A DNA stretch of 40,279 bases. Source: a virus. Position 1 is the first letter of the stretch; each line of letters begins with the position of its first letter. A program made the position numbers and the translations under genes. Shown here one piece after another: positions 525 to 20,486 of the stretch. Location of the stretch: positions 1 through 40,279 of the IMG/VR virus record IMGVR_UViG_3300028653_000032. One strand, written 5' to 3'. A model generated the notes under the pieces. The model was given only the letters and a program-made list of their open reading frames with translations. It searched no databases and was not told where the DNA came from.

Positions 525-1247
525 ATGAAAAAAGTTCTAGCAATTGTTTTTACTTTACTTGCCATATCATGCTCTGCTTTTGCTGGTCAAGACCAGCACG
601 GAAAGATTGTTAATGGTGACCAGACTTTTAATGATAATGTGTACATGAAAAATCTTACAGTAACAGGAACGCTTGGTGTAAATACTTACACAGTGATATA
701 CGCAAGCGGTATTTCTTGTACTGCTCCTGTTGGTGCTACTATTACCTACGGAGTAACTGCTGGCTCTATAACTACTCCAATTGGAAACATTACAGCATTA
801 ACTACTGTAACAGGCACTGCAACTGATCTGGAAACAACAACTTTTAATGCTTCGGGTGCAGTAGCGACAGGCGCCTTAACGGTAACAGGTGCAATGTCTG
901 CAACTACCGGAATTACATCAAGTAATGGAAAATTTGGAACTGTTGACTTTCAGGCTAATACACATTATAGTTTAATTGTTTCCACGATTATGCCGAGTCT
1001 TGCAGATTTTGCTTTGACTCCTGCGGATGGAAAAGCGGGTAGCTTTATAATTATAGCTGGAACTTATACTGCAACAGGATCTTTTACTACTGCTGCGGCT
1101 GTTACGCTCGGACTATCAAGCGTAGACACGTCCACTTCGCAAGGAACGAATGGAATAAACGTGTACGACGGTGGAACTATTGCACATGTTGAAAATCATT
1201 CCGGCTCCTCCAAAGTTGTAACAATAAGATATGACTATGTTCAATAA
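525..1247 (+). CDS. Secreted Thr/Ser/Ala/Gly-rich protein of unknown function in the tail region
   Basis: The 240-residue protein begins with a clear Sec signal peptide, MKKVLAIVFTLLAISCSAFA, probably cut before GQDQ. The mature part is low in charge and rich in Thr, Ser, Ala and Gly, with repeated short beta-like segments (TVTGTLG, LTVTGAMSATTG), and ends in IRYDYVQ, as in fibre or surface proteins. AAAAGGAG at 511-518 serves ATG 525. It sits between the tail terminator and the major tail protein, where phages do not normally encode exported proteins. It could be an inserted moron, a host-surface-type protein or an unusual virion decoration. The function is unknown. Confidence 0.75.
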   Translation: MKKVLAIVFTLLAISCSAFAGQDQHGKIVNGDQTFNDNVYMKNLTVTGTLGVNTYTVIYASGISCTAPVGATITYGVTAGSITTPIGNITALTTVTGTATDLETTTFNASGAVATGALTVTGAMSATTGITSSNGKFGTVDFQANTHYSLIVSTIMPSLADFALTPADGKAGSFIIIAGTYTATGSFTTAAAVTLGLSSVDTSTSQGTNGINVYDGGTIAHVENHSGSSKVVTIRYDYVQ

Positions 1248-1274
1248 GTAAAATTTCATAAAAAGGAGAACAAA

Positions 1275-2156
1275 ATGGGAAGAGATAATATTATTTTAGG
1301 TTTCGGAAAAGTTACCAATATCGGTGTAGGTTTGATAACGGTTTCTGCTTCCGGGGCAAGTAAAGCCTCTGGATTAAACTTAGGTCTAAGCGATGGAGGG
1401 ATAGAAGTTTCTCCAAAAGTTGAAGTTTCCGAAATTGACGTTGATAATTCAACAGGTGTTATTAAAAGATATAAAACAAAAGAAACACTTGAAATTAAAG
1501 CAAGCATTGCAGAAGCTGATTTGGCAAAACTACAAATTGGAATGGGTTTGCCGGATTCTGCTTTAGTTGCTTCAACTTTAAAAGTTGGTGGAGATTGGAC
1601 GCTTCCAGAGCTTACAGTTTATATTGATACAAATGGAGTCAATGGTGGAACAAGACAATATACTGTGTATATAGCCAATATTTATGGGGACGTTAAACAT
1701 TCTTACAAAAAGAAAGAAAAAACCATGATACCTATAACTATTGCAGCTATAATGGACATTAGCAGAACTGTTGGTGACCAGTTTTGGACTGTAACAGACA
1801 GCAATGCAAATACAACCGCGCCGACAATTGTGCTTACTACTCCTGCTGCTGGCGGAACAGTTGTAAAAAATACTAAAGGAACAGTCTTGCTAACTATTAC
1901 TTCTCCAAACACTCTTGACCAGAGTTCTTTTGCTTATGGAAAAGGATTCATTATAGTTAATATTACTACACCTTCAACACCTGTTCTTGTAGCAGGCAGT
2001 ATTGTTTACGATAGTGTAGCAAAAACAATTACATTTACTCCTACCTCGAATTGGAATGCAAGCGATATATTAAATGTACATGTTTCGGGATTAAAAGATG
2101 TTTTAGGTAATGTGTTAGCAACTCCGTATCTTGCGGAGATTACAGTAACGGCATAA
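1275..2156 (+). CDS. Major tail tube protein with C-terminal bacterial Ig-like domain
   Basis: The 293-residue protein is placed directly before the tail chaperones, as major tail proteins are. Residues about 1-175 form the tube-like part (GISKA-type beta segments, ending …VGDQFWTVTDSNA). Residues about 180-293 look like an SbsA/Big_5-type Ig domain: TAPTIVLTTPAAGGTVV, then a VHVSGLKDVLGN signature typical of such domains. Ig-like decorations on tail tubes are known and may bind host surface sugars. AAAAGGAG at 1261-1268 supports ATG 1275. The tube role rests on context. Confidence 0.75.
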   Translation: MGRDNIILGFGKVTNIGVGLITVSASGASKASGLNLGLSDGGIEVSPKVEVSEIDVDNSTGVIKRYKTKETLEIKASIAEADLAKLQIGMGLPDSALVASTLKVGGDWTLPELTVYIDTNGVNGGTRQYTVYIANIYGDVKHSYKKKEKTMIPITIAAIMDISRTVGDQFWTVTDSNANTTAPTIVLTTPAAGGTVVKNTKGTVLLTITSPNTLDQSSFAYGKGFIIVNITTPSTPVLVAGSIVYDSVAKTITFTPTSNWNASDILNVHVSGLKDVLGNVLATPYLAEITVTA

Positions 2157-2160
2157 ATCG

Positions 2161-2222
2161 CCTCCCAGGTGACGGCAGGGTGTAAAAGCCTTGCCGCCAC
2201 TTCAGGGAGAAACCTGGGAGGG
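2161..2222 (+). promoter_or_regulatory. Nested RNA hairpin that buries the Shine-Dalgarno site of the tail chaperone gene
   Basis: CCTCCCAGGT (2161-2170) is perfectly complementary to ACCTGGGAGG (2212-2221). Inside, CGGCAGGG (2173-2180) pairs with CCTTGCCG (2189-2196) with one G-U pair. The 3' outer strand contains the ribosome site GGGAGG for ATG 2227. There is no U-run, so it is not an intrinsic terminator. It probably tunes chaperone translation. Confidence 0.7.
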
Positions 2223-2226
2223 TTAA

Positions 2227-2622
2227 ATGGAAGAAAATAAAGATAAAAATGAATTAGAAACAATAATTCCAAAGTATGAAGAAGTGAAAATTGTAAATAA
2301 AGTTTATAAAATAGGAAGGCTTGGTTTTAGACAGGTAGCAAATCTTGGAATGTTTTTTGATGCTGTTCTTCCTAAGATTAAAGATGCAATTAAGCCCGGA
2401 GTAAATAGTAATGAAAAAGATTTTCAATTACTTATGTCTACTATAAACGATGATGAACTATGCCAACTATTTTCTATTCTTTCAAACGAACAAGATAAAG
2501 ATTTTATCAAAGAAAACATTCTTACAGACGGCGTTCTTTGTACTGATATTATTGCCTTAATTTGTCAGCATAATAATTTTAAAAAGCTATTTGGAAATTT
2601 TCAAAAGGCGACAAGGATTTAG
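2227..2622 (+). CDS. Tail assembly chaperone, short form (gpG-like)
   Basis: The 131-residue acidic protein lies between the major tail protein and the tape measure gene, the fixed place of gpG-type tail chaperones. Its sequence is helix-rich (RLGFRQVANLGMFF, DELCQLFSILSNEQ), like the tail-assembly chaperones of many siphoviruses. It has a strong GGGAGG ribosome site, locked in a hairpin. Near its 3' end lies a canonical slippery heptamer (2595-2601), and the -1 frame stays open to 2912, so a longer fusion form is expected. Both forms would coat the tape measure protein during tail assembly. Confidence 0.8.
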   Translation: MEENKDKNELETIIPKYEEVKIVNKVYKIGRLGFRQVANLGMFFDAVLPKIKDAIKPGVNSNEKDFQLLMSTINDDELCQLFSILSNEQDKDFIKENILTDGVLCTDIIALICQHNNFKKLFGNFQKATRI

Positions 2623-2912
2623 AATCAGGCGGTTCCTTTGTTGCAGTGTTTGTCAAAATAGCAACTAGCACATCTTATAAGCTTGAAGAAATTGCTGAAT
2701 GGCCGCCAGAAAAAATAAACAGAGTTTATCTTGAAATAGTTAAACAGGAATTTTATAATAATAAACTTCAAGCAGTTTTGCATGGTGTAGAAGCTGATGC
2801 AATAGGCGAATTTGAAATAGTAGAAGAACAAAAAACAGAAAAAGCTATTGCTACTATGGAAGACTTACACGATTTAGGAAAGTTTGCACCGAGTGTAAAA
2901 AGAGGAGAGTAA
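2583..2912 (+). CDS. Tail assembly chaperone C-terminal extension (gpT-like), made by -1 frameshift
   Basis: This -1 frame is open from 2583. It would join the short chaperone at 2595-2601, giving …LFGNF-SKGDKDLESGG… and then LEEIAEWPPEKINRVYLEI, a motif like the Y-x-(L/I)-x-E-I-x-x-W segment of gpT-type extensions. The only independent start is GTG 2646, with no ribosome site before it, so separate translation is unlikely. The fused product is about 228 residues (2227-2912). It ends directly before the tape measure ATG at 2913. Confidence 0.75.
   Translation, partial: KAIWKFSKGDKDLESGGSFVAVFVKIATSTSYKLEEIAEWPPEKINRVYLEIVKQEFYNNKLQAVLHGVEADAIGEFEIVEEQKTEKAIATMEDLHDLGKFAPSVKRGE
2595..2601 (+). 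promoter_or_regulatory. Programmed -1 ribosomal frameshift site, A_AAT_TTT
   Basis: The heptamer AAATTTT fits X_XXY_YYZ with zero-frame codons AAT and TTT at 2596-2601. It lies seven codons before the stop of the short chaperone and inside the overlap with the open -1 frame (from 2583). A weak downstream stem is possible (AAAGG 2604-2608 with CCTTT 2635-2639). The gpG/gpGT arrangement of siphoviruses uses the same mechanism. Confidence 0.8.
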
Positions 2913-5117
2913 ATGTCAGATTTGGGTGATTTTCTTGGAACACTAAGAATAAATTTTGATAACTCTGGAACAGATGCAGCAAAAGCTGCAATTGATTCTG
3001 TTGGCAGTTCTTCTAAAGACACAGACGAACTAAGTAAAAGATTGGTTGTGACTTTGCAAGATGTCCAAAGTGCTCTTGGTGGCATTAAAAATGAAATGAT
3101 GTCTTTTATTACCGAGGCAGCAAACAATGAACTTTCTTGGACAAGATTACAAAAGGCCGTTGAAAATACTGGACTATCCTGGACTGATTCAAAAGTAAAA
3201 ATAGACGATTATGTTTCTTCTTTGAAAGAAACTACAAACTTAACAGACGACCAGCTAGTAGGCGCTTTACAGAGAACAATTCAATTTACCGGAAATTTGT
3301 CAGACGGGTTGAGAGCGGCAAAATTATCCGTTGACATGGCTGCTTCTGGCATGTTTGGATTAGATCAAGCAACTCGCTTGGTTTCAATGGCAACGGAGGG
3401 CAATGTTGCAATGCTTGGCAGATTTATTCCTGAATTAAAATCTGCAACAAATGAAGAGTTAAAAGGAATGGACGCCCATCAAAAAGCAGATTATGCACTT
3501 GGCTTATTACAAGCACGCTTTGGTGGCATGGCAGCAAATGAATTAAAAACAACCGCCGGACAAATGAAATTAATAAGTACAAATACGACTGAACTAAAAG
3601 AAGCTATTGGTACTCAATTGCTTCCAACTGTAAATGCAATTTTAACAGTTTTAAATTCTTGGGCTAAAGAAGCAATACAAATTATAAATAATCACAGAGA
3701 GTTGTTTGCAACTATATCAGCTTTAATTATGAGTCTTTCGGCTCTTGTTTTAGGCTTTGGAAGTCTTAGCTTTGCAATAGGTGTTGCAAAGGTAGCTTTC
3801 ACGAGCTTGTCTGCTGTAATAACATCTAACCCAATAGGCGCAATAGCAATCGCTTTTGCTGCATTAACTGCAACTGTATATGCTTATATGGACGCTACGC
3901 AAAAAACAGCTGATGCAAATACTCATATGGGCAAAACTCATCAAGATTTAATTAATATTCAAAAGGAAGAACTCAAGCAAACAAATATGAACATGGCTGC
4001 TGGAAAAATGTATAATGACCAGGGTCAGATTTTAGCTGAACGCAAACTATTACTTGAGAAATCTATACAATATCAAGAATTACAGCTTGAGAGAGAGAAA
4101 CAGTCTGCTATACAAGAAACAGTTAAAAAAAGAAGTGAAGCATCTATTAAAAATCAGCAAGATACTGAAAATTCGATAGTAAAAGAAATGGCAGCTTTAA
4201 AACAAAAACAAACCGACCATGACAAATATTATAAAGAACTTGAAAAAATGGGCATGGTTTCGTTACAGCAACAACGTGTCAATCTTGAAGCTGAAATAGC
4301 AACTGTAAAAGATGGAACAGCACGTAAGGCTGAATTGATGCACGAATTATTTTTATTAGAACAAAAAATGTCAGAGGCAAATAATTATACATTAGTTGGC
4401 GGCTTTAAAAATGCCATAGATAAAATGCTTCAAGCGCAGCATAATTGGGGAGACGATTTTACAAAAATGCTTGACAATATACAATCCGCAACAACTAGCG
4501 ACCTGGCTGATATATTGAAAGGCGGTATATCTCTAGCTGATGGATTAAAAAAAATATGGGAAGATTTAGAAAATGCAATAATAAATTCGCTTGTTAATGC
4601 TGTAGCTCAAGAAATTGTACAGCATACTATAATAGACGGTCTTAGAAAACTTTGGAAAGTCGCACAAATTACAGATGCAGCAGAAGTCGGCGCAGCAAAT
4701 GCTGCTGCTGCAACAGCTTGGAGTTTATGGGGAGCAATCGGCATTGGTATTGCTATAGGCGCAGCTATCATGGCTTTCTCTAATGCGAAGTTTGAGCAAG
4801 GAGGATTTGTTCCAGGAAATTCTTTTACAGGAGATAAGGTTGTAGCGTCTTTAAATAGCGGAGAGTTTGTTTCAAACACAGCACAACAGCAAAGACTTCT
4901 AGATTTAGCGAACGGAAAATCAAAACCAGATTCTAGTTCAGGTTCGCCTCAAGGCGGAGATACTTTCGTATTTAATATAGGAAATATAGATGAAAATAAT
5001 ATAAATGAATACTGTAGACAGATAGCAGAAGCTATTAAAAGCGATTCACCGGAAGGCAGAAGACTATCAAAAGTTATATATAAAAAAGGCAGCAGCCTTA
5101 ACGGAGAGACAGTATAA
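2913..5117 (+). CDS. Tail tape measure protein
   Basis: At 734 residues it is the long helical protein after the chaperones. Residues about 50-240 are helical with repeats typical of tape measures. Residues about 265-330 hold hydrophobic, membrane-spanning-like segments. About 385-490 is a Gln/Glu/Lys-rich coiled coil. Residues about 595-625 hold another Ala/Gly/Ile segment. The C-terminus has the conserved GGFVPG…GDKVVASLNSGEFVSN motif of tape measures. Family rule of thumb (about 0.15 nm per residue) would give a tail near 110 nm, which is an inference. GAGGAG precedes the ATG. Confidence 0.93.
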   Translation: MSDLGDFLGTLRINFDNSGTDAAKAAIDSVGSSSKDTDELSKRLVVTLQDVQSALGGIKNEMMSFITEAANNELSWTRLQKAVENTGLSWTDSKVKIDDYVSSLKETTNLTDDQLVGALQRTIQFTGNLSDGLRAAKLSVDMAASGMFGLDQATRLVSMATEGNVAMLGRFIPELKSATNEELKGMDAHQKADYALGLLQARFGGMAANELKTTAGQMKLISTNTTELKEAIGTQLLPTVNAILTVLNSWAKEAIQIINNHRELFATISALIMSLSALVLGFGSLSFAIGVAKVAFTSLSAVITSNPIGAIAIAFAALTATVYAYMDATQKTADANTHMGKTHQDLINIQKEELKQTNMNMAAGKMYNDQGQILAERKLLLEKSIQYQELQLEREKQSAIQETVKKRSEASIKNQQDTENSIVKEMAALKQKQTDHDKYYKELEKMGMVSLQQQRVNLEAEIATVKDGTARKAELMHELFLLEQKMSEANNYTLVGGFKNAIDKMLQAQHNWGDDFTKMLDNIQSATTSDLADILKGGISLADGLKKIWEDLENAIINSLVNAVAQEIVQHTIIDGLRKLWKVAQITDAAEVGAANAAAATAWSLWGAIGIGIAIGAAIMAFSNAKFEQGGFVPGNSFTGDKVVASLNSGEFVSNTAQQQRLLDLANGKSKPDSSSGSPQGGDTFVFNIGNIDENNINEYCRQIAEAIKSDSPEGRRLSKVIYKKGSSLNGETV

Positions 5118-5881
5118 TGCCAGCTAATTTTTACATATTATCAAAAAACTATGTTAATTCTAATAATACATTTAATGTTAGTTCTAATTCTGCTGATAGT
5201 TTTTTATTATACGACCAAAGCAAAGCTCCTCAATGGAAAAGCTCTGGAGAAACAGTTGAAAACGGAAGTTATTCAACATATATAGAAATTATATTTTATT
5301 CTGGTGCTTCTGCTGTAAATAGAAATATTGACACTATTGTTTTACAGAATATAAATTTAAAAGCATTTAAAATCCAGCAATTTAATGGAGTTTCGTATTC
5401 CGATATACCAGAAGCAATCTTTTCTAATAATTCTTTAAGCACCATTCGTATAAAATTAGCAACACCAATTAATACAGCTAAAATTAAAATAATTATGGAT
5501 TCAACTATAATTGCAAATCAAGAAAAAATGATTGGAGAGATATGGTGTATGCTTGAAAATTACAATTTAGCTTTTCGTTCAACAAGACCTAGAAATGATA
5601 ACCTTATAGGAGATAATTTTAGAACAGTTAATGGAAAATTAAATACATTTTATATTATAAGCAAAGTTGAATTTTTATGGACTTTAGATAATATAACCGA
5701 TTCAGTCAAAGACGACCTGGAAGCTATATACAACAACCATTCTTTGATTTGTGTTTATATAGACTATGACCGCGAACCAAATTCAATATATCAAGGACAA
5801 TGGGTGAATTCTTTTAGAGCAAATAAGAAAGAACCTAAAATACCTATAACAGCAGTAACTTTTGATTTTAAGGAAAATTGA
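5117..5881 (+). CDS. Distal tail / minor tail protein
   Basis: The 254-residue protein starts by TAATG overlap with the tape measure stop, so the two are translationally coupled. It is rich in beta-type segments and Asn/Ser, with no catalytic motif that I recognise. Its position directly after the tape measure and before the large tip protein is that of distal tail (Dit-like) or minor tail proteins. The C-terminal part contains aromatic strands (FYIISKVEFLWTL, ICVYIDYDRE). The function is from position only. Confidence 0.6.
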   Translation: MPANFYILSKNYVNSNNTFNVSSNSADSFLLYDQSKAPQWKSSGETVENGSYSTYIEIIFYSGASAVNRNIDTIVLQNINLKAFKIQQFNGVSYSDIPEAIFSNNSLSTIRIKLATPINTAKIKIIMDSTIIANQEKMIGEIWCMLENYNLAFRSTRPRNDNLIGDNFRTVNGKLNTFYIISKVEFLWTLDNITDSVKDDLEAIYNNHSLICVYIDYDREPNSIYQGQWVNSFRANKKEPKIPITAVTFDFKEN

Positions 5882-8817
5882 TGCAATCAATCTCAAGCGC
5901 AGTATCGGCAAAGCAAAAAGATGTGAGCATAAAATATTTTAAGCAGGTTAATATGCTTAGAAGATATTGGAATGGCTCTGCTTTTGTGTATGACGCAGTT
6001 CCTATAAATATAACAGACGATATAAAAGACGTGGGAAATCTTGCTTGGAATTTAGATACCGAACAATTAAATATTTGGAGAACAGCTGGAATAAATTTAA
6101 CAATAGATAATAGTAAGGGTAAATATCATATAAATTCTTTTGGTTATTTTCCTTCACCTTACACGAGAAAATATACACAATTTCAAATAATAATAGGTTA
6201 TATTTTAGACGATGGTTCAAAGGAAACAGTATATTGTTTTACAGGAGTTCTTGACTCAGACCCTGTTTTTCAAACAAAAACTTTTACAATAAACTTTCCT
6301 ATTTCAGGAACAGATATAATTTTAAATAAAACGAATGCTTCTATAGTAAGCGATTCACAAACCGATACAGGAACTTGGGGCGGCAGCTTATCTTTGTTTG
6401 ATATATATACAACAAATACAGGTGTTGTAGCTATTAGTAGCGTTGTGGTTGATGGAGTAACCCTAGACCCTCTTTATGATTACTCTGTTTCATCTTTAAA
6501 TGATTTTTATAATCCAGCAAAAATAACTTTAAATTATTCATCTTCGCCTATTGTTAGTTATTCAGTAATATATAGAATTTGGAAAAAGAATATTGCTGTA
6601 ATTGATGCTCTGGGTCAACTGCTTGATGCTGCTGGTTTTGATTCTTCAAAAAGAACAATAAGCTCTATAAGTCTTGATTCTGTTAAAGGTTATAGAAAGT
6701 ATCCTAGCTTTTTAAATATGAGTAGAAACGTAGACTCAAGCACTTCCGGTCAGTTAAAAATAAAGAGTGAAGACTTTGTAAATGATATAGATTCAATAGA
6801 AACTTCATACAGTGTCGCAGGCGGTGCTTTAATTCTCGGTACCTATCCTAATCAAAAAATAGCTATAGACCCTTTTTTATTTTATGAAAACAATAATGCC
6901 TTTACTGATGTTCCTGAAAATGTAGGTTGGTCAAAATATGTTACAGGGAACGCTTTGGCTTTAAATGAGATTGTATATATAGATAATAATGGAATTAAAA
7001 ATAATTTTCATTTTAAAACTTCTGGAACAAGCAATACTACAATAGAATATATTAAAACTCAGGCAACTAAAATAATTACATTTCCTTTAAAGATAACAGG
7101 AAATGGACAGTTTAATATAAAAATAGCAAGTGGAACTTACGAGTGTTACATGAATATAGATTATAATAAAATTTCAATATTTGACCAGTATGATACTTTG
7201 ATAGCTAGTACATATATTAACGAAACAAACAATTGGAACAATTATCATACATTTCAATTATTAACAACTTCGGCTGGCAATGTAAAAGCCTCTGTTGATA
7301 ATATAGTTTTTTGTAATTCGACTTTAGCTTTTACAAGCCCCAATCAATTTGTGCGTTTTGAAATTATAAAACTTGGTAATTCTGTTATTGAAGGATGGAT
7401 TCCTGGAGCAACTTCTGCGCAAGGTTTTGCAGTTGGCGACAATATATACTGGAGTTCTGCTTCTACGGGAACAATATATGTGACCTCTAAATCAATTGAT
7501 TTTGGACGCGGAATGACAAGTCCTTTTAGTTTAGCATCAAAATGGGGAGGCTGGCATAGTGGTTATCAAAGAATTGGAAACGTAATAACAAAATGGACAA
7601 ATTCCGGTACAAGCGCAAATGTTCAAATTGACCTGCAAACCTATCATACAGACCCTAAACCCGCAGGAATGTATGCTTTTCCATTTAGAACAGTTTCTTA
7701 TTCGGGAGATATTGGTACTCCATCCGTTGACCATGTTAATACTGATGAATCGCCGCGATACTGTATCTGGAAAGCGACAATAACAGGTGAATTCTATATA
7801 GGCGATTCACATACAGGTGTTTCGTTAGACTATATGCTTATGCCTGCACATTTAGTAACAGTTGTTGAAGATTGTACACAAAATGCAAGCAGTTATTTAC
7901 CTTTTATTTCTCATCATCTTGACAATAATGGCGCAATAACAGTTTATTCAAAAACATCACCAACGGGAAACGAAAATGCAATTTCTGGTTCATATCCATA
8001 TTGGGACTGGGAAACAGAACAATTAGTGTCTGGTGGAGCAATATCTTCAACTGTGCAAGAATTCATAAGGTTGTCCACTATAATTGAAATGAATGATAGC
8101 ACTTTTGATTATCCAATTCTTTTTAGTGAAATATTTAAATTTCAAACAAGCGGAATTGATGAAAATTACAAATTTCTTATGTCAAACTATTCTAGCCAAA
8201 CTTGCCAATCTGCAATAGAAGCAATTGCTCAAATGTTTGATTGTGAAATTGGAGTAAATGCTTTAGGAAAATATTTTGTAAGATCTAAAAATATAAGCAT
8301 AATACCAGTTATTAATTTTTCTGATAATGATATTATAATGCTTGATAATTTGACAGAAGGTTGGAACAATATTTTAAATTATATTTCGGTTACTTATGGA
8401 AATTTTCAATCTATAGTTAATCCTACAACAGAAGGAGATGTTTCTCCAAATTCAATAGAACAATATGGACAAATAAATTTAGATATTGCATTATCTAATG
8501 TTCTTTTTGATAATAGAATTGATTTAACGCTTGTTCTTGCTAAAAAATATTATAATACTTACAAGCTTCCAAAAAGAATGTTCAGAATACAAACAAAAAT
8601 ATTTCCACAAGTAGAGCTTGGAGATATAGCATCAATAACACTTAAATCAGAACCGTGGATGTGGTTTTGGGGAGACAAAAATATGAAATTTGGAATGGAA
8701 GGGAAATCTTACTTTTCAGATAGCGATATCACAATAAACAGTCTTGCAGTAAAAATAATAGGTATTGAAATATCATGGAAAGATTTAAAAACTTATTTAA
8801 AAGTTCGGGAGGTTTAA
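5881..8817 (+). CDS. Large tail tip / baseplate hub-like protein
   Basis: The 978-residue protein starts at ATG 5881 by TGATG overlap; a TTG one codon earlier is less likely. It is beta-rich with Asn, Ser, Tyr and Ile. Residues about 350-500 look like a lectin-type jelly roll (ITGNGQFNIKIASGTYECYM…, then INETNNWNNYHTFQLLTT), a possible carbohydrate-binding insert. The last about 250 residues (MFDCEIGVNALGKYFVRSKN … KIFPQVELGDIASI) recall the hub/tip proteins that close siphovirus tails. Size and location support a tip-attachment or Tal-like role. No cell-wall hydrolase motif was seen. Confidence 0.65.
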   Translation: MQSISSAVSAKQKDVSIKYFKQVNMLRRYWNGSAFVYDAVPINITDDIKDVGNLAWNLDTEQLNIWRTAGINLTIDNSKGKYHINSFGYFPSPYTRKYTQFQIIIGYILDDGSKETVYCFTGVLDSDPVFQTKTFTINFPISGTDIILNKTNASIVSDSQTDTGTWGGSLSLFDIYTTNTGVVAISSVVVDGVTLDPLYDYSVSSLNDFYNPAKITLNYSSSPIVSYSVIYRIWKKNIAVIDALGQLLDAAGFDSSKRTISSISLDSVKGYRKYPSFLNMSRNVDSSTSGQLKIKSEDFVNDIDSIETSYSVAGGALILGTYPNQKIAIDPFLFYENNNAFTDVPENVGWSKYVTGNALALNEIVYIDNNGIKNNFHFKTSGTSNTTIEYIKTQATKIITFPLKITGNGQFNIKIASGTYECYMNIDYNKISIFDQYDTLIASTYINETNNWNNYHTFQLLTTSAGNVKASVDNIVFCNSTLAFTSPNQFVRFEIIKLGNSVIEGWIPGATSAQGFAVGDNIYWSSASTGTIYVTSKSIDFGRGMTSPFSLASKWGGWHSGYQRIGNVITKWTNSGTSANVQIDLQTYHTDPKPAGMYAFPFRTVSYSGDIGTPSVDHVNTDESPRYCIWKATITGEFYIGDSHTGVSLDYMLMPAHLVTVVEDCTQNASSYLPFISHHLDNNGAITVYSKTSPTGNENAISGSYPYWDWETEQLVSGGAISSTVQEFIRLSTIIEMNDSTFDYPILFSEIFKFQTSGIDENYKFLMSNYSSQTCQSAIEAIAQMFDCEIGVNALGKYFVRSKNISIIPVINFSDNDIIMLDNLTEGWNNILNYISVTYGNFQSIVNPTTEGDVSPNSIEQYGQINLDIALSNVLFDNRIDLTLVLAKKYYNTYKLPKRMFRIQTKIFPQVELGDIASITLKSEPWMWFWGDKNMKFGMEGKSYFSDSDITINSLAVKIIGIEISWKDLKTYLKVREV

Positions 8818-9024
8818 ATGGTTATTAAAAATGGAGATACTCCAGACGCAGACGTTTTAATGATTTTATTGCTTTCATTGGCGTCAGTGGTTTCAGTAGG
8901 CACAGTTAGGCCAGTTGATCCTAATATAGTTATTTGGATTAAAACAGATGAAGCTCCTGGCATGCAGGTAGCAATAAAAAATACTGATGGTTTTAGAATT
9001 GTAATGACAGGAGGATTAATATGA
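8818..9024 (+). CDS. Small tail-region protein of unknown function
   Basis: This 68-residue protein follows the tip protein without a gap, and its TGA overlaps the ATG of the next gene (ATGA at 9021). GGGAGG at 8809-8814 is its ribosome site. It has a hydrophobic stretch (VLMILLLSLASVVSVG) around residues 13-28 and a beta-like C-terminus. I do not recognise it. Tight coupling to tail genes suggests a minor structural or assembly role. Confidence 0.6.
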   Translation: MVIKNGDTPDADVLMILLLSLASVVSVGTVRPVDPNIVIWIKTDEAPGMQVAIKNTDGFRIVMTGGLI

Positions 9025-10310
9025 AAAAAATATTACTATTGCTTAATATTATAATAAGCTGTTCTTCTATATGTTATGCTGTTCAACCTGTTCCTTATTC
9101 GTTTGACACTAGCACAACAACACGCACAGGCGATTTTCGTTTTGCTGGAAGAGTTCTTGTAGGTGCAACAACTGCACAGAATACTATAATCATCTCAAGC
9201 ACAACAGTAAATTTTGGGAGTGCTACAGTGTCGGGTTCAAATATTATAGCTTCATCTGCAACGTACTCTTTAAAATCAAGCACTGCAATATATGCCTTCA
9301 CTGCTAGCACTTCAACATATTCTGTTATTTCCGGAACAGCTTCTTACTCCACAATTTCAGCAGGAGTATTAGGTATGCCAGATATTGCAACTTTATCATC
9401 ATCTCAAACATTTTCAGGAACTAATACATTTAAAAAAATATCTTTTAGCACTGCAACAAGTGTTTCTCAAATCGTTTGGGCTGATGGAACAGTTAGTACA
9501 ACAGCAAGCTCTGGAGGCGGTTCATCTGCTGGTGCGGCATTTCTTGCAGCTAATCAGACATTTACGGGAAATAATAGTTTTTATGATTCTACAAGTGCTG
9601 CTTATCCATTAACAATGCAGGATACATATACCACAATACAATTTCATACAGGCGACTTATATCTATCAACTATTTTTGGAAATAATTTCAGAGTTGGATA
9701 CAATGGCTTAATTTACGGCGAAAGTGGAAAAGACAATGTTCTTTGCATTGCTATTGGCACAAGTGGTTTTATCGGAATGGGAACAAATCATCCTTCGCAA
9801 ACATTAGACGTTATAGGTAACATTGCCACCTCTGGAATGATTATATCTAGCGGAACGGGTAATAATTATTTTAAAGGTCTTATTAATGCCTCAAGTGCTA
9901 TATTTTCTGGTTATATAAATATATCCTCAATAACAGTATCAAATTTAAGCGGAACAGGATTAAGAGCTGTCATGGCTGATGCCTCCGGTACTCTATCGGC
10001 TCCAGTTTCAGACAAAAGACTGAAAATAAATATTAAACATCTTAATAGTGAGAATAAAATATTACAATTAAATCCAGTGTCGTTTAATTATAACACGCAA
10101 ATACAAAGAGTTTCCAGATTTGGGAATCAAAAAGAATATGGTTTAATTGCTCAAGAAGTAGAAAAAATACTTCCAGAACTTGTATTTGAAGACAAGGAAG
10201 GATGGAAAGGTGTAAAATATGAAAGCCTAATACCGATGCTTTTAAAATTAGCTCAAGAACAACAAAAAGAGATTGAACAACTAAAAAAAGAAATAAATAA
10301 GAGAAAATAA
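9021..10310 (+). CDS. Secreted fibre-like protein with C-terminal S74 intramolecular chaperone domain
   Basis: At 429 residues, it starts with a Sec signal peptide (MKKILLLLNIIISCSSICYA, cut before VQPVPY). The middle is a Ser/Thr/Ala/Tyr repeat region (TASTSTYSVISGTASYST) and a beta-helix-like part with SSQTFSGTNTF and ANQTFTGNNSF repeats. Residues about 330-429 are a Peptidase_S74 chaperone: SDKRLKINIKHL, NPVSFNY, YGLIAQEVEKILPELV and a C-terminal coiled coil. In this family the domain trimerises the fibre and then cuts itself off at the Ser of the SDxR motif. A signal peptide on a tail fibre is unexpected. Tail fibre and exported surface protein are both possible. Confidence 0.85.
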   Translation: MKKILLLLNIIISCSSICYAVQPVPYSFDTSTTTRTGDFRFAGRVLVGATTAQNTIIISSTTVNFGSATVSGSNIIASSATYSLKSSTAIYAFTASTSTYSVISGTASYSTISAGVLGMPDIATLSSSQTFSGTNTFKKISFSTATSVSQIVWADGTVSTTASSGGGSSAGAAFLAANQTFTGNNSFYDSTSAAYPLTMQDTYTTIQFHTGDLYLSTIFGNNFRVGYNGLIYGESGKDNVLCIAIGTSGFIGMGTNHPSQTLDVIGNIATSGMIISSGTGNNYFKGLINASSAIFSGYINISSITVSNLSGTGLRAVMADASGTLSAPVSDKRLKINIKHLNSENKILQLNPVSFNYNTQIQRVSRFGNQKEYGLIAQEVEKILPELVFEDKEGWKGVKYESLIPMLLKLAQEQQKEIEQLKKEINKRK

Positions 10311-10594
10311 TGAACAAATATCTAAAAGTCAATACGAGAAATTGGAAAAACATAAGACACAACTATTTTTATATGAGTATGGAAAAAATAGTTAAGCCTT
10401 TTCGCGGCCATAAAACTTGGATTCTTATTTTATTAATAAATTACTACATTAAACAGCATTGCCAATTTATTGATACATTTTATATAACATTGTTTTTCAG
10501 CGCAATGATTCTATTGATTAAAGAATGGGCTGATAGAAAAATAAGAGAATATATAATTAATTTGCATATTGCCGCCGCAAAAAAGGGGAAATAA
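10310..10594 (+). CDS. Small membrane protein, possible holin
   Basis: The 94-residue protein starts by TAATG overlap with the fibre gene (an internal ATG at 10373 is an alternative start). It has a basic N-terminus, then two likely membrane segments (TWILILLINYY and FYITLFFSAMILLI), and a basic C-terminus ending HIAAAKKGK. Two short membrane spans with charged ends fit a class II holin, but the location among fibre genes also allows another role. No family was recognised. Confidence 0.6.
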   Translation: MNKYLKVNTRNWKNIRHNYFYMSMEKIVKPFRGHKTWILILLINYYIKQHCQFIDTFYITLFFSAMILLIKEWADRKIREYIINLHIAAAKKGK

Positions 10595-10595
10595 T

Positions 10596-10868
10596 ATGCC
10601 ATATAAAACAATATATGATCTAAACGGAAATCCGGTTCAGCTTGTTTATATTGATAGTGAAGTTTGTTGCATGGTTTGCGATGCAGCTGACCCTTCAAGG
10701 GTTTTTTTTGGAGTAGCAGAAGCAGTACATGGAAAAAATATTCCTGCTTCTTTTGCTTTATCTGTTTGGGAGATATGGATTATAGATTCTATCGGAAATA
10801 AGTTCTTTGCAAATGGAGTTGGAGGATACATGGATTTGGTTTGGAACAACAGGGCTTCGTACTTTTAA
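10596..10868 (+). CDS. Small tail-region protein of unknown function
   Basis: I chose ATG 10596 (90 residues), which has AAGGGGAA just upstream, over an in-frame TTG at 10569 that would overlap the previous gene. The protein begins MPYKTIYDLNGNPVQ, contains a CCMVC motif around residue 24 and ends in WNNRASYF. It may be a small fibre accessory or chaperone. The next gene's ATG follows two bases after its stop. I do not recognise the family. Confidence 0.6.
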   Translation: MPYKTIYDLNGNPVQLVYIDSEVCCMVCDAADPSRVFFGVAEAVHGKNIPASFALSVWEIWIIDSIGNKFFANGVGGYMDLVWNNRASYF

Positions 10869-10869
10869 A

Positions 10870-13140
10870 ATGAAAAAAATACTGTTTCTATTATTATCTT
10901 TATACTCTATATGTTATGCAACTTTTCCAGAAGTTGATTATGATGGATATCATTATATTCTAGACCCTTTTGCTAAATCTTCTAATGGGATGTTAAATGG
11001 GGCATATGTTAATTATACAAATTCTTTTTCTCAGCTTAGAGACAGCAGCACTTTTGTGCCTGTATACACATTAACAGCAGGAAATGCCAATAATTCTTTA
11101 TTGTTAAATGGTTATCCGTCAAGCCACTTTATGACAGTTGGTTCTTCAGCTGGTATAACGGCTCTTTCTCAAGCAACAGATTCTATGACTTTTGTTATTC
11201 CAAATGCCAGCACTGCAACTTTTGCATATAATGCAAATAATTTAAACGGATTAACCTCATCATATATAATAGCTGTATCAACCAGCTTAATTTCTCCGCC
11301 AAATCTTTCTCCTTATCTTTTAATTACAAACGCAGCAACAACATATTTTACTATTTCGAGCGGCACAGTTAATCAAGTAAACATTTATAATTTACAGCAA
11401 GCAACTGGCTCAATTATATCTCTGTTATTAAATAGCACAAACACATTCACCGGAAGAAATACTTTTACGCAATATACCACTATTTATTCCACAATGTCAG
11501 TACAATATCAATTGGGGATAGGCTGTGCTCCCTTATATGCGCTTGATGTGCAATCTCCGAATACGAGTCTTTTCAGAACAGCACAATCAGGTATTTATGA
11601 CTCATTAAATTATATAATGAGCAGTTACACTCTTCCTGCTCCGAATGTTGTTAGTGCTTCAGGAGAAGTGAATGGTGCTAGGCTTGCATGGATGGCTTGG
11701 GATAACAATACCGGCACAGGCTGGATTTCAAACAACTCATGGCCTGTCTGGTTAAAATATGATTTTGGATCCGGTAATACTTATATAGTCATTCGATATA
11801 CAATGTATGGAGTCAATACGACTTCGCCAGAAACAAATCTCGCTCCCAAGTCTTGGGTTTTACAGGCTTCTAATGATAATAGCTTCTGGGTTAGTCTTGA
11901 CACCCAAACAAACGCTTCTGCTTGGAGTTCTGGCGAAATAAGAACATATGATTTTGTTAATACAACACCATATAGATATTACAGAATTTGGGGAACTGCT
12001 TCTCAGGGCGGTACTTATTTTTGCATTGCGGATATGACGTTACAGACAAATTTAGCCAATGCTTTAAATGTTACACCCGCATTAACAACTTTTGGGATGA
12101 GAACCAGCACAGGAACTTTAGCCTCCGGAAATGGTGTGATAACTATTGTCGGCGAAGCTTTAAGAGGAAGAATAACAGGTCTGAGACAAATATACTTTGA
12201 AACAATAAATGATGATTATGGTTCAGCGTGGATGAAAATTGTAAATAGAGCATATATGCTAGGTGTAGCTTTTGGTTGCAATTCTACTTTTGGATTAGAC
12301 ACATTTGACATGATGTTTTTCTGCCAAGACCAGATAACCTATCGAACGATACGACTTGAAAATAGGATTGGTCTTGCATTAACAGGAAGCAGACCTGAGT
12401 TTCAAATAGGTAATCAGACCGGCGGGGTACATCCCACGCTTTGCATTTCCGACACAGCAGGTCTCTTTTTACAACCTCTTAGTGTAATGACAACTGGTAG
12501 TGCAACATTTAATGTTAGTGGGACTGTTCACATGTCTTCAGACGCCGTCACAGGCCATGGAATGTATCTCATTAATGGCGGCAATATAGGCATAGGCACA
12601 TCAAGTCCTTTTTCCACATTGAATGTTAATGGTATAACATCTCTAGGTTCTGCAACAAACTACTTTCAGTCATCATCAACTGGTGTTATTTTTGTAGGAA
12701 GTAGTGCTTGCCTTCCTCATTCATCATTATATGCGGAAGACATATCTTCAACGGTTGTTATAGCTAGCACATATACATATTCAGGTCTTACTGGAGGCTT
12801 ATCAGACGGCAACTCTGTTGGTTTTACTATTTCTGGAAGTTCTTGCGCAATATGCGGAGTTAAAGGAGTATATATAGTGTCGTGGAGTGTTTCTGCTATG
12901 CTTGCCTCTGGTGCGAATCAACACATTGAAGGCAAAATATTGGTAAATCAAACTGCACAAGTGAACGGTTTATCCGTAACTCATATTCAAAACACTACCG
13001 ACGAACAATCTTTTTCTGGCTCAGGTATTGTCAGTTTAAATGTTGGAGACACTATTGGTCTATGTTTTCAAAATCAGACAGCTGTAAATAATATAATAGT
13101 GACCCATGTTAGCATGTCGGTTTTTCAAATAGGAGGATAA
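10870..13140 (+). CDS. Secreted receptor-binding-like protein with discoidin (F5/8 type C) domain
   Basis: ATG 10870 gives 756 residues starting with a signal peptide, MKKILFLLLSLYSICYA, close in sequence to that of the 9021 gene. An in-frame TTG at 10807 would overlap the previous gene and bury the signal. Residues about 255-400 look like a discoidin sugar-binding fold (WMAWDNNTGTGWISN, WVLQASNDNSFWVSL, YRYYRIWGT). Residues about 620-756 look like a C1q/TNF-type trimeric jelly roll (KGVYIVSWSVS, LNVGDTIGLCFQN). Such domains bind cell-surface glycans. It may be the main host-recognition protein, but export by the Sec system is odd for a virion part. Confidence 0.8.
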   Translation: MKKILFLLLSLYSICYATFPEVDYDGYHYILDPFAKSSNGMLNGAYVNYTNSFSQLRDSSTFVPVYTLTAGNANNSLLLNGYPSSHFMTVGSSAGITALSQATDSMTFVIPNASTATFAYNANNLNGLTSSYIIAVSTSLISPPNLSPYLLITNAATTYFTISSGTVNQVNIYNLQQATGSIISLLLNSTNTFTGRNTFTQYTTIYSTMSVQYQLGIGCAPLYALDVQSPNTSLFRTAQSGIYDSLNYIMSSYTLPAPNVVSASGEVNGARLAWMAWDNNTGTGWISNNSWPVWLKYDFGSGNTYIVIRYTMYGVNTTSPETNLAPKSWVLQASNDNSFWVSLDTQTNASAWSSGEIRTYDFVNTTPYRYYRIWGTASQGGTYFCIADMTLQTNLANALNVTPALTTFGMRTSTGTLASGNGVITIVGEALRGRITGLRQIYFETINDDYGSAWMKIVNRAYMLGVAFGCNSTFGLDTFDMMFFCQDQITYRTIRLENRIGLALTGSRPEFQIGNQTGGVHPTLCISDTAGLFLQPLSVMTTGSATFNVSGTVHMSSDAVTGHGMYLINGGNIGIGTSSPFSTLNVNGITSLGSATNYFQSSSTGVIFVGSSACLPHSSLYAEDISSTVVIASTYTYSGLTGGLSDGNSVGFTISGSSCAICGVKGVYIVSWSVSAMLASGANQHIEGKILVNQTAQVNGLSVTHIQNTTDEQSFSGSGIVSLNVGDTIGLCFQNQTAVNNIIVTHVSMSVFQIGG

Positions 13141-13181
13141 ACTAAATTTGGTATAAAAAATAAAAAAAGGAGGTGATTTCA

Positions 13182-13484
13182 ATGGATATTAATAAAATAC
13201 TCGCAATGATTCCGGGCAATAATTATAAAACAATAGTTGGAGTTTTGGGACTTATTGTTTGTTATTGTTTACAAGCAAAAGGTGTAATTGTTTCAGATTA
13301 TATTTTTAAAGCTTTTCAAGGTTTAGTTGCAATAGGTTTGATACATAAACTCGAAAAAGTTAAAGAAGATATTTCGCAGTTAAAAGGCGACATGACTGAT
13401 TCGATTGACAGTCTTACTGAATCAATAAAACCAGAGGAGAAAAAATGCGAACAATCACCTGTGCAATCTTCACAGCCTCAATAA
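13182..13484 (+). CDS. Small membrane protein of the lysis region, holin candidate
   Basis: ATG 13182 follows a perfect AAGGAGGTGAT ribosome site (13167-13177) and gives 100 residues; GTG 13173 lies inside that site and is less likely. One membrane segment (TIVGVLGLIVCYCL) is followed by an amphipathic region (FKAFQGLVAIGLIHKLEKV) and a charged coiled-coil-like tail. It resembles small phage holin-type proteins. It overlaps the next gene by 40 bases. Confidence 0.6.
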   Translation: MDINKILAMIPGNNYKTIVGVLGLIVCYCLQAKGVIVSDYIFKAFQGLVAIGLIHKLEKVKEDISQLKGDMTDSIDSLTESIKPEEKKCEQSPVQSSQPQ

Positions 13485-13876
13485 TGTTTTTAATTTCTGG
13501 TTGTTCTGGATTGGGTACTTCATTGCTGCATCCTGAATTTACAGCACTAAAAGCTAATGGGGACGCCAATGCTGTTAAAGTTCAGGGCGATATTGCTCCT
13601 ATAAAAGCGCCTATAAAAGCCGAAGCACAAGCTCAAGCGCAAGCCGTAATAGGAGACAACGAAGCCAATCATACAACCGTTGGCGGTAATATGAAAGTAA
13701 ATAACGATTCCGCTATAATGAAGGAGTATATTAACGGAATGAAAGAATGGCACGAAAACGACAACAGAAAAGACAGATATATAATTGGTGCGCTTGTTTT
13801 ATTGTATTTAAAAGTATTTGCTTTATTAACATGGGTTGTTCAACGCGATATTAGAAAAAAGGAGAGTTTATCATGA
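13445..13876 (+). CDS. Candidate unimolecular spanin (u-spanin) lipoprotein
   Basis: The 143-residue protein has an N-terminal lipoprotein signal with lipobox LISGC (Cys20), a periplasmic stretch rich in Ala, Gln and Lys (about 25-110), and a C-terminal membrane segment (YIIGALVLLYLKVFALLTWVV, about 113-133) followed by a basic tail. An outer-membrane lipid anchor plus an inner-membrane C-terminal span is the defining layout of u-spanins, which fuse the two membranes in the last step of lysis. It sits in the lysis block three genes before the endolysin. GAGGAG precedes the ATG. The sequence family itself was not recognised. Confidence 0.65.
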   Translation: MRTITCAIFTASIMFLISGCSGLGTSLLHPEFTALKANGDANAVKVQGDIAPIKAPIKAEAQAQAQAVIGDNEANHTTVGGNMKVNNDSAIMKEYINGMKEWHENDNRKDRYIIGALVLLYLKVFALLTWVVQRDIRKKESLS

Positions 13877-14280
13877 AAAAATTAGCTATTGCATTTTTAG
13901 TTGTAATGTTTTTAGGCGCATTAACTTCTATAGTATTAGCAGACGACACAGCGAGTGCATATTTTAAAATCGGACAAGCTGAGTTTGTTTATCCGCTTTC
14001 AAACGCTTCTGTAATTTCTCTATATGATTACTGGAAAGGAGAAGGACTTATAGGAGCAGAATCAAGCCTTGTAAAATACCAGCGTCTTAATCTTAATTTC
14101 GGCGCAGTAACTTCTTTTATTGCAAACGGGATGCCTTTTGTTTCTTTAGACTTTGACTGGTGTGGCCTTATCACTAATTCTTCACAAACAAAACTGGCAA
14201 GAGTTGGAATATGGTTTGGTAAAGATTTTAAAAATAACGATAACAGAGCCGGAATAAAAGCATCTATACCTGTTTGGTAA
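13873..14280 (+). CDS. Exported small protein, possibly outer-membrane associated
   Basis: The 135-residue protein starts by ATGA overlap with the spanin candidate. It has a Sec signal peptide (MKKLAIAFLVVMFLGALTSIVLA, cut before DDTAS). The mature part alternates polar and aromatic residues (YQRLNLNFGAVTSF, FVSLDFDWCGLI, ARVGIWFGKDF) and ends in a C-terminal Trp (IPVW), like short outer-membrane beta strands. It may help lysis or modify the host surface, for example in superinfection exclusion. This is inference; no family was recognised. Confidence 0.7.
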   Translation: MKKLAIAFLVVMFLGALTSIVLADDTASAYFKIGQAEFVYPLSNASVISLYDYWKGEGLIGAESSLVKYQRLNLNFGAVTSFIANGMPFVSLDFDWCGLITNSSQTKLARVGIWFGKDFKNNDNRAGIKASIPVW

Positions 14281-14302
14281 AATCTAACAAAAGGGGATTT
14301 CG

Positions 14303-14632
14303 ATGGGAGAACTACTAGCAGCAGTGGCGCCAAAAATAGCAAGTGAATGGGGAATTGTAGCAGCAATTGCGGTTGTGCTGGTTACAGGGATGATGATTAT
14401 GTTCTTCTTTGTAATTAGATGGATCTTGAATCAGCAAGTAAGAATTCTTGATATGGCAGATAAGCAAAATGAGAAATGGCAAAATGTTCTTGATAAACAT
14501 ACTGAGCAAGCTGCCTTGTTTCACACAACTGTTTTGCAAGCACAAACATATCAAAGAGACGAGCATAAAGAGCATAAAGAAATACTTATTGAAATCAACA
14601 GAGCAGCAACAACTCTAATTGCAAAAATCTAG
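14303..14632 (+). CDS. Holin-like protein with one membrane span and coiled coil
   Basis: The 109-residue protein has one strong membrane span (WGIVAAIAVVLVTGMMIMFFFVI, about 16-38) and then a charged coiled coil to the C-terminus. Single-span proteins with a cytoplasmic coiled coil directly before an endolysin often act as holins or holin partners (BhlA-like). AAGGGG precedes ATG 14303, and the endolysin starts eight bases after its stop. Confidence 0.65.
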   Translation: MGELLAAVAPKIASEWGIVAAIAVVLVTGMMIMFFFVIRWILNQQVRILDMADKQNEKWQNVLDKHTEQAALFHTTVLQAQTYQRDEHKEHKEILIEINRAATTLIAKI

Positions 14633-14640
14633 GAGAAAAT

Positions 14641-15138
14641 ATGTCGATGATAGATCATATCAGAAATGTACTGCCTCAATTAAAATTTAATTATCCAGGA
14701 GACAAAAGCTGGAGAATTTCGCAGCCATACGGTGCAAAAAATACTTGGGATAAGTGGCATATTGATACCGAAGGAATGTGGCAACCTGGACAAATCAACG
14801 GTTTTGGTTGTCATAAAGGTATTGATTTTGCTATTCCAGAAGGAACACCTATTCAAGCAATATGCGAAGGCTCTTGTTTTAAATCAGACTTGCAAAATCC
14901 AAATGATATAAAAGATGGTTTTGGAATGCGGATTTGGCAGCAGTTTACTTTTGACAATTTAACTTTCAGTATTTTTTATGCACACCTCTCTCTTGTGCAA
15001 ATTTTACCTGGTAATAAAATATCTGCAAAACAAGAAATTGCTTTAAGTGGAAACACAGGACACTCAACCGGCGCTCATTTACATTTGGAACTAAGAGACC
15101 CTTTAGGGCAATCTCATCCAATAATTTTTATCGATTAA
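14641..15138 (+). CDS. M23-family peptidase endolysin
   Basis: The 165-residue protein is a single LytM/M23 zinc endopeptidase domain. It shows HKGIDFAIPEGTPI (zinc ligands His58 and Asp62), FYAHLS, and SGNTGHSTGAHLHLEL with the HxH ligand and catalytic His. It would cut peptide cross-bridges of the cell wall. There is no signal peptide, so it needs a holin. It is the last gene of the late block and is followed by a strong terminator. GGAGAA precedes the ATG. Confidence 0.92.
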   Translation: MSMIDHIRNVLPQLKFNYPGDKSWRISQPYGAKNTWDKWHIDTEGMWQPGQINGFGCHKGIDFAIPEGTPIQAICEGSCFKSDLQNPNDIKDGFGMRIWQQFTFDNLTFSIFYAHLSLVQILPGNKISAKQEIALSGNTGHSTGAHLHLELRDPLGQSHPIIFID

Positions 15139-15143
15139 AAACC

Positions 15144-15210
15144 AACGTCGCAAGGTGAAGAAAGCCTCCTCATGCTTTATCTTCTGCCCGCCCTTGCGGC
15201 GTTCTTTTTT
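15144..15210 (+). terminator. Strong intrinsic terminator after the endolysin gene
   Basis: AACGTCGCAAGG (15144-15155) pairs with CCTTGCGGCGTT (15192-15203) with one G-U pair. An inner stem GAAGA/TCTTC with AAGC/GCTT lies inside. A run of six T follows at 15205-15210. It ends the late transcript just before the first early promoter. Confidence 0.85.
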
Positions 15211-15236
15211 GTCTAAAAACTATTTCTTAGAAAGAC

Positions 15237-15265
15237 TTGACATCACCAATAAAATGTATTATACT
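15237..15265 (+). promoter_or_regulatory. Near-consensus sigma70-type promoter (early)
   Basis: TTGACA at 15237-15242, a spacer of exactly 17 bases, then TATACT at 15260-15265. Transcription would start near 15272 and read into the first early genes. It lies directly after the late terminator. Confidence 0.85.
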
Positions 15266-15312
15266 ATTATTAAGGAGGAAGGAATTTATAAAAAATGAAA
15301 AAGGGAGCAGTT

Positions 15313-15513
15313 ATGTTAAAGGTTAAAAATGATATTTGGTGTCCAGTAAAAGTATATGTTAATAATTGTTATACTTCAACAATACAAGTTTGCGGAACAG
15401 CTATATCTTGCAAGCAAGTAGTGGAAAGTATTAAAAGAAAAGGATTCACGTTCAGTAATCATAAAGTGATTCCTGTAAAAGGTTGCACAGTTACAGCGAA
15501 ATTCAAATATTAA
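15313..15513 (+). CDS. Small early protein of unknown function
   Basis: This is the first gene after the early promoter. ATG 15313 (66 residues, MLKVKNDIWCPVKV) has GGAG at a 5-base spacing. An ATG at 15295 (72 residues) is in frame, but its AAGGAGG lies 16 bases away. It is small, basic and beta-rich with four Cys (WCPVKV, NNCYTS, QVCGTAISCKQ). No family was recognised. First-position early genes of phages often act on host functions, which is inference only. Confidence 0.65.
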   Translation: MLKVKNDIWCPVKVYVNNCYTSTIQVCGTAISCKQVVESIKRKGFTFSNHKVIPVKGCTVTAKFKY

Positions 15514-15522
15514 AGAGGATAT

Positions 15523-15750
15523 ATGAATATAATATTTTGTGGTTCGGCTTGCATTGGTAATCTTAAAACACACTATCAAGCGCAGCGAATTAATTTAACA
15601 GGGAATCTTATTATTAAAGATTTAGAAAATCCAATTAATAATATTATTATTCCTAAAAAATATGTACTTACATTTAATCCTGAATTTTGCTATTATGCTA
15701 TTGATGATGCAGCAGACCTGGGAAAGCTAAAATTTATAAGAATAGGATAA
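15523..15750 (+). CDS. Small early protein of unknown function
   Basis: The 75-residue protein begins MNIIFCGSACIGN and ends LGKLKFIRIG. AGAGGA lies just before ATG 15523. It contains an NLIIKDLENPINNIIIPKKY stretch of alternating hydrophobic residues, suggesting beta structure. It is co-transcribed with its neighbours from the 15237 promoter. I do not recognise it. Confidence 0.6.
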   Translation: MNIIFCGSACIGNLKTHYQAQRINLTGNLIIKDLENPINNIIIPKKYVLTFNPEFCYYAIDDAADLGKLKFIRIG

Positions 15751-15753
15751 ACA

Positions 15754-15909
15754 ATGCTTATAATATATGTTATATCAACAATAATTATCATTATCCTAAC
15801 AACAATAGTTGTTATGCTTGTAGATATAGCATATATTAAAATTTCAAATAAGCCATTGACAATGTCGCAAAAAAGAAATATAATTATCAGGAAGCAGGGC
15901 AGAAGTTAA
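15754..15909 (+). CDS. 51-residue single-span membrane protein
   Basis: ATG 15754 opens four bases after the previous stop. The N-terminal half is one long membrane span (VISTIIIIILTTIVVMLVDI), followed by a basic tail (SQKRNIIIRKQGRS). No good ribosome site is visible, so it probably relies on coupling to the upstream gene. The function is unknown. Confidence 0.55.
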   Translation: MLIIYVISTIIIIILTTIVVMLVDIAYIKISNKPLTMSQKRNIIIRKQGRS

Positions 15910-15931
15910 AGGGGAAACAGGAGGTACTTAA

Positions 15932-16279
15932 ATGAGTACAAAGAAAGAAGCAAAAGTAAAAAAGGAAACGATATTTGATATCGACCTTTTAAAAATCTCA
16001 ACAGAAGAGTTGAGAATGCTTAGGCATCAGTTTTATGCAAGGCGCACAAACGCTAGCGATGAAACAAGAGTTTTGTGTAATAAAAGAATAGCTGAGTTGA
16101 AAAAGATTCTTCTTTCTCGCAAAGAAAAAGAGCCTAAGAAAGTTACAAAGAAAGTTACAAAGAAAGTTACAAAGAAAGTTACAAAGAAAGTTACAAAGAA
16201 AGTTACAAAGAAAGTCGCTCAAGAGGCAGCACAAGAAACTATTTCTAATGCGCCAGACACAGATAAACCAAACGCATAA
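15932..16279 (+). CDS. Basic protein with KKVT repeats, paralogous in part to the 16523 gene
   Basis: The 115-residue protein has two parts. Residues about 18-66 form a helical motif (EELRMLRHQFYARR … KRIAELKKILLSRK) that matches a segment of the neighbour at 16523 (ETLRMFRHRLYATK … GKIEELRQELIRRK), so the two are related. Residues about 69-95 are six KKVT repeats plus KKV, very like histone-H1-type or HMG-type tails that bind nucleic acid. GGAGG at 15920-15924 serves the ATG. A DNA- or RNA-binding role is inferred from charge only. Confidence 0.75.
   Translation: MSTKKEAKVKKETIFDIDLLKISTEELRMLRHQFYARRTNASDETRVLCNKRIAELKKILLSRKEKEPKKVTKKVTKKVTKKVTKKVTKKVTKKVAQEAAQETISNAPDTDKPNA
16136..16207 (+). 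repeat. Six tandem copies of a 12-base unit (AAGAAAGTTACA)
   Basis: The unit AAGAAAGTTACA is repeated six times without a mismatch and encodes (KKVT)6. Perfect identity at the DNA level suggests recent slippage expansion, so copy number probably varies between relatives. Confidence 0.97.
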
Positions 16280-16302
16280 GCGTTAATAAAATAAAATAAA
16301 AA

Positions 16303-16339
16303 GCACCTATCATTAAACCCCTTGTGATAGGTGTTTTTT
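16303..16339 (+). terminator. Intrinsic terminator
   Basis: CACCTATCA (16304-16312) pairs with TGATAGGTG (16325-16333), followed by six T (16334-16339). It ends the first early transcript only five bases before the next promoter's -35 box. Confidence 0.88.
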
Positions 16340-16344
16340 ATTGC

Positions 16345-16373
16345 TTGACATTATAAAAACAATTTGGTAAAAT
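16345..16373 (+). promoter_or_regulatory. Near-consensus sigma70-type promoter (second early)
   Basis: TTGACA at 16345-16350, 17-base spacer, TAAAAT at 16368-16373. The start would be near 16380. It drives the block that begins with the 16523 gene and queC, unless stopped in the leader at 16443-16497. Confidence 0.85.
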
Positions 16374-16395
16374 ATATACATAATAATAAAACTTC

Positions 16396-20476: not shown

Positions 20477-20486
20477 GAGCATTAAA

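Follow-up and report, generated by a model that had tools for sequence, protein, structure and literature searches.

Fibre-like proteins with predicted signal peptides in the tail region of a tailed phage as candidate exported adhesins

Three genes in the tail block of a tailed phage encode fibre-like proteins that begin with predicted signal peptides, and judging from their sequences all three products are probably exported. The reading that we favour as a whole, with a probability of roughly 0.45, takes them as surface adhesins that would mask receptors on the infected cell. The DNA is virus record IMGVR_UViG_3300028653_000032, and its 40,279 bases (34.6% G+C) make up the whole stretch analysed, here called the window. 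The window shows a tailed-phage gene layout, with head genes (terminase at 31913, portal at 33352, protease at 35904 and capsid at 37891) and an M23 endolysin gene at 14641. Among the window genes examined none was recognised as a tail sheath gene, and a long non-contractile tail is therefore likely. Searches with the S74, tape-measure or terminase protein alone retrieved no close relatives of the window, and no tail-tip relatives were present in 12 related records. The best terminase relative (L007), considered as a parallel, has a different tail and offered nothing parallel.

The genes of the tail and lysis regions described below lie on the plus strand. The first of the three (525–1247), encoding a repeat-rich beta protein of 240 residues, is placed between a tail completion gene (89–511; PF11367, 1.9e-4, slightly below the curated cut-off) and the gene of a probable major tail protein with an Ig domain (1275–2156; phrog_2175, 1.3e-17; Big_5, 3e-6). 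The tape measure gene (2913–5117; phrog_24676, 1.2e-14) and the gene of a probable tail-tip protein of 979 residues (5878–8817) follow, the latter being so named from its position, as neither a family match nor a structure match was obtained for it. The second and third genes (9021–10310, 429 residues; 10870–13140, 756 residues) come next. Two further exported-type genes, absent from the list of an earlier note on this DNA, adjoin the three in the lysis region. The product of 13445–13876 combines a lipoprotein signal (lipobox Cys20) at one end with a membrane segment, read off the sequence, at the C-terminal end, comparable to unimolecular spanins; 13873–14280 encodes a protein of 135 residues with a strong signal peptide by rule-based score and no family match. 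Elsewhere in the window, positions 17013–25216 hold QueC, PTPS/QueD-like, radical SAM/QueE-like, GTP cyclohydrolase and tRNA-ribosyltransferase-like genes, a set that probably serves 7-deazaguanine DNA modification; its GTP cyclohydrolase carries a phosphoribosyltransferase-like N-terminus. A DnaB helicase match (27000–27626) begins at profile position 46, and what should precede this is either missing or encoded upstream in a different frame. The protein encoded at 27813–28397 contains a long alanine-rich stretch of the AAAYAADA type in low-complexity DNA.

Signal peptides were scored with a home-made rule-based predictor, which applies the same rule to all loci and yields some false positives. 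It called a signal peptide in 525 (score 14.6), 9021 (9.2) and 10870 (11.7). The earlier note had claimed signal peptides for these three genes and had named such a prediction as a check; the genes are at the places it gave, and all three score. The N-terminus of the 525 protein reads MKKVLAIVFTLLAISCSAFA up to the predicted cleavage site and GQD after it (signal at 525–584, cleavage after residue 20 or at lipobox Cys16), that of 9021 reads MKKILLLLNIIISCSSICYA followed by VQP (signal at 9021–9080), and that of 10870 reads MKKILFLLLSLYSICYA followed by TFP (signal at 10870–10920). Each start combines positive charge, a strong hydrophobic stretch and a good signal-peptidase site at its end. A PROSITE-type lipobox also fits 525 (Cys16) and 9021 (Cys14), and these two proteins may be cleaved by type I or type II processing, with lipid anchoring possible. 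Strong ribosome sites stand exactly before the starts of 525 (GGAG) and 9021 (AGGAGG); 10870 has none, and its start lies one base past the stop of the preceding gene. The next in-frame ATG is about 40 codons downstream in both 525 and 10870. The signal peptides of 9021 and 10870, which the earlier note had called nearly the same, are indeed alike, but at the DNA level the likeness is within synonymous expectation (p 0.16) and does not point to a recent duplication. Under criteria matched for window and reference ORFs, 3 of the 22 window ORFs of at least 200 residues scored as signal-bearing. In comparison, viral terminase/S74 loci gave 14 of 1084 (p 0.004), and capsid-related loci gave 22 of 678 (p 0.04). 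When a ribosome-site filter was added, the window count became 2/22, against 8/1084 (p 0.015) and 15/678 (p 0.10), respectively. The excess of signal-type ORFs in the window over other viral loci is modest.

Behind its signal peptide the 9021 protein consists of repeats and a C-terminal S74 chaperone domain (10008–10184), which matched PF13884 at 1.2e-15 and 58 bits, above the curated cut-off of 22, and in which the SDxxxK motif is intact (SDKRLK at residue 330 of 429). Profile and motif place the protein in the S74 chaperone family, for which self-cleavage and trimer formation are predicted. The N-terminal part of fibres is the usual docking part; virus fibre profiles aligned to 9021 from residue 43–69 onward only, and they recognised no virion-docking domain at its N-terminus. 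In the 10870 protein, repeats are accompanied by a discoidin (F5/8 type C) domain (11671–12024; PF22633, 7.3e-7; PF00754, 9.6e-6), which also matched the sugar-binding domain of a mannosidase (7nsn, 6.4e-11), and by a probable C1q/TNF-like tip (12820–13128). The matches of this tip to BclA_C (2.6e-4) and C1q (0.004) are both below the Pfam cut-offs, and Foldseek returned ExsFA/BxpB, the receptor-binding protein of phage 1358 and C1q heads for a low-confidence model (pLDDT 46). The S74 and discoidin domains named in the earlier note were thus borne out by profile matches, while the C1q-like tip gave weak signals in both sequence and model. For the 525 protein, no relatives were found in Pfam or phage records, PHROGs matched weakly and at the N-terminus only, and the structure model was uninformative.

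A signal peptide joined to an S74 domain is unusual in a virus gene. We gathered S74 loci, 80 of viral and 80 of cellular origin, and scored those in which the gene start lay inside the locus: a signal peptide was called in 1 of 56 viral loci, the single case (L128) being doubtful, as opposed to 42 of 59 cellular loci. The 9021 gene is therefore built in the manner of the S74 proteins that cells export. One viral locus with a match apparently reaching residue 1 (L162) turned out to hold an ordinary fibre gene with no signal peptide. Omnitrophota, considered as a host, were set aside as well, for S74 matches occurred in 20 of 145 genomes, mostly through the shared domain, and the N-termini read differ.

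The window is not alone, as signal-bearing fibre-like genes form a recurrent pattern of which we found no description in the literature searched. Within the terminase set, L064 has three consecutive signal-type genes between the head morphogenesis and protease genes; the same slot is occupied by signal-type genes in L343 and L359 of the capsid set, and L346 shows a run of such genes after head morphogenesis. This run (13981–18915) comprises about five genes immediately past head morphogenesis, of which two are cysteine-rich. In L368–L370, too, the head module contains fibre or jelly-roll genes with a signal peptide, and all the phages named here, L064, L343, L359 and L346 included, have a related capsid protein. 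One L343 protein combines a signal peptide, fibre repeats and an S74 domain (HMM E-value 1e-8) and is, by its predicted architecture, a direct parallel to 9021. A further family, putatively of jelly-roll type by our reading of its sequence, is common to L064, L343 and L359 at 37–39% identity. Searching for it across all viral contigs gave 11 loci, or seven phage types after removal of duplicates; a signal peptide is present in six of the seven, all six with the morphogenesis–protease slot, and the seventh (L374) has no signal peptide and a different, virion-like gene setting. This comparison covers relatives, separate from the three window genes. Since the signal peptide is kept while the rest of these proteins diverges to 31–46% identity, the pattern points to a signal peptide that is in use in this family, though by the one home-made rule used for every locus.

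Several known systems share parts of this arrangement. The mosaic adhesive trimeric (MAT) fibres of Bdellovibrio carry a signal peptide, a phage-fibre-like trimeric shaft and an S74 or other adhesive tip at the cell surface (PMC10769870), and signal peptide, fibre shaft and adhesive tip are common to the window proteins by prediction. MAT fibres, however, are products of cellular genes used in prey recognition (PMC10769870), encoded on the chromosome of a predatory bacterium, whereas the window genes lie in a phage tail block of a virus record in which terminase, portal and capsid genes are present. The conserved beta-rich domain of about 130 residues that follows the MAT signal peptide was not recognised in the window proteins, and the window N-termini showed no similarity to those of the cellular S74 proteins of our survey, a set outside which the reference MAT proteins lie. 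The Llp proteins of T5 and BF23 are receptor-blocking lipoproteins, that of T5 being exported and encoded beside the receptor-binding gene (PMC9586334, PMC4728585). Like Llp, the window proteins would be made by the phage-infected cell from genes of the host-recognition region, with export predicted in their case; unlike the window proteins of 240, 429 and 756 residues, Llp is small, a periplasmic lipoprotein that has neither a fibre domain nor an S74 domain, and a lipobox is possible in 525 and 9021 only. The lom gene of lambda, flanked by tail spike and tail fibre genes, encodes a signal-bearing membrane protein (PMC12309495); the signal-bearing product of a tail-region gene is the common feature, while Lom is an outer-membrane beta-barrel and in this differs from the window proteins. 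The tail fibres of T5 and K1F carry, as does 9021, a C-terminal S74 domain on a beta-rich shaft, yet S74 virion fibres have no signal peptide (55 of 56 viral loci) and 9021 does. The CsgGF curli pores of a lytic phage (PMC9004378) are exported to the envelope, as is predicted for the window proteins, but they form a secretion pore from proteins unrelated to those of the window. No curlin subunits belong to the phages described in that study (PMC9004378). On the viral contig L152, genes at 10419–15160 specify CsgF and CsgG along with a weak curlin-repeat protein, and FecR-like and cyclase-like genes come next. This curli block has an S74 fibre gene on one side and Rz/Rz1-like genes on the other. 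If the reading of exported adhesins is true, the window proteins would be Llp-like in action and MAT-like in build, and we claim membership of neither system.

Against export stands the placement of the three genes, which occupy the usual place of virion fibre genes, next to tail completion, tail-tip and tape-measure genes; there are also matches to virion fibre families. The three proteins may quite possibly be true fibres of the virion. In that case the signal-like N-terminus would be unused or would help assembly at the inner membrane, or the fibres would be exported first and join the particle at lysis. The morphogenesis–protease slot was empty in most phages surveyed and contained signal-less fibre-like genes in some and signal-bearing ones in others; L315 has an S74 fibre without a signal peptide in the slot where L343 has its signal-bearing one. 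Signal-bearing slot genes may thus stand in for virion fibres, and the signal-less jelly-roll family member of L374 likewise lies in a different, virion-like setting. In addition, the major capsid proteins (phrog_264) of L077 (15499–16653), L080 (15468–16622) and L363 begin with signal-like N-termini of textbook type, which two phages keep at 88% identity, and weaker ones were seen on the capsid proteins of L304, L327 and L332. Capsid assembly is cytoplasmic, and for a phage protein a signal-like N-terminus is therefore no proof of export; the literature searched held nothing direct on signal peptides of tail fibre or capsid proteins. The assumption in the earlier note that signal-bearing proteins have no place in the virion is accordingly unsafe, given L315, L374 and these capsid proteins. 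On the other hand, good cleavage sites come after the hydrophobic cores of the three proteins, 55 of 56 viral S74 genes have no signal peptide, and a docking domain was not recognised.

Two other explanations appear less probable. That N-termini hydrophobic by chance, or wrong starts, account for the signal peptides is very unlikely in our estimate: the genome is AT-rich, the predictor gives false positives, 10870 has no ribosome site and the enrichment over capsid-related loci is modest, but strong ribosome sites precede 525 and 9021, a restart in 525 or 10870 would cost about 40 codons, three such genes lie within one tail block, and the arrangement recurs in other phages. Proteins that are exported and yet serve as adhesins between cells or to surfaces, in clumping or the capture of new hosts, instead of blocking receptors, would agree with discoidin and C1q-like tips as general sugar- or protein-binding modules, and 'sibling capture' has been proposed for phage-encoded curli (PMC9004378). 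We consider this unlikely, as the curli-pore phage studied gave no sign of clumping (PMC9004378) and late surface display would be of little gain to a lytic phage. Of the two readings in the earlier note, surface proteins or an unusual route of fibre attachment, the former gained from the signal evidence and the cellular S74 and MAT analogues, and the data fit either.

The favoured reading of exported, receptor-masking adhesins draws on signal-type N-termini, ribosome sites, the absence of a recognised docking part in 9021, and recurrence in the structural modules of L064, L343, L359 and L346 and in six of seven types of the jelly-roll-like family. According to it, three fibre-like adhesins would be made late, together with the tail genes, and the infected cell would export the 525, 9021 and 10870 proteins via Sec to the periplasm or the host outer surface, 525 and 9021 possibly with a lipid anchor. 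There the S74 domain of 9021 and the C1q-like tip of 10870 would drive trimerisation outside the cytoplasm, as in the MAT fibres. Because their domains are of the same kinds as those of virion fibres, what the adhesins would occupy is most likely the receptors of the phage itself or surface sugars, those that the virion fibres use, and such masking would keep sister phages out and prevent progeny from sticking to debris. If the three are not virion fibres, the receptor binder of the particle must be another protein, for which the 5878 product is a candidate.

More generally, we tentatively propose that in tailed phages scattered through one capsid lineage, look-alikes of fibres and decoration proteins are exported via Sec from head and tail operons, MAT-like and trimeric, as a general receptor-masking or cell-contact layer, for which the literature searched held no description. 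Should the three proteins belong to the virion, the signal-like N-termini of virion proteins would call for explanation, and predicted signal peptides would be an unsafe basis for sorting phage genes. If they are exported, tailed phages would present their own adhesins of the fibre type on the cells they infect; receptor blocking would extend past small lipoproteins, and MAT fibres would have a phage-side counterpart.
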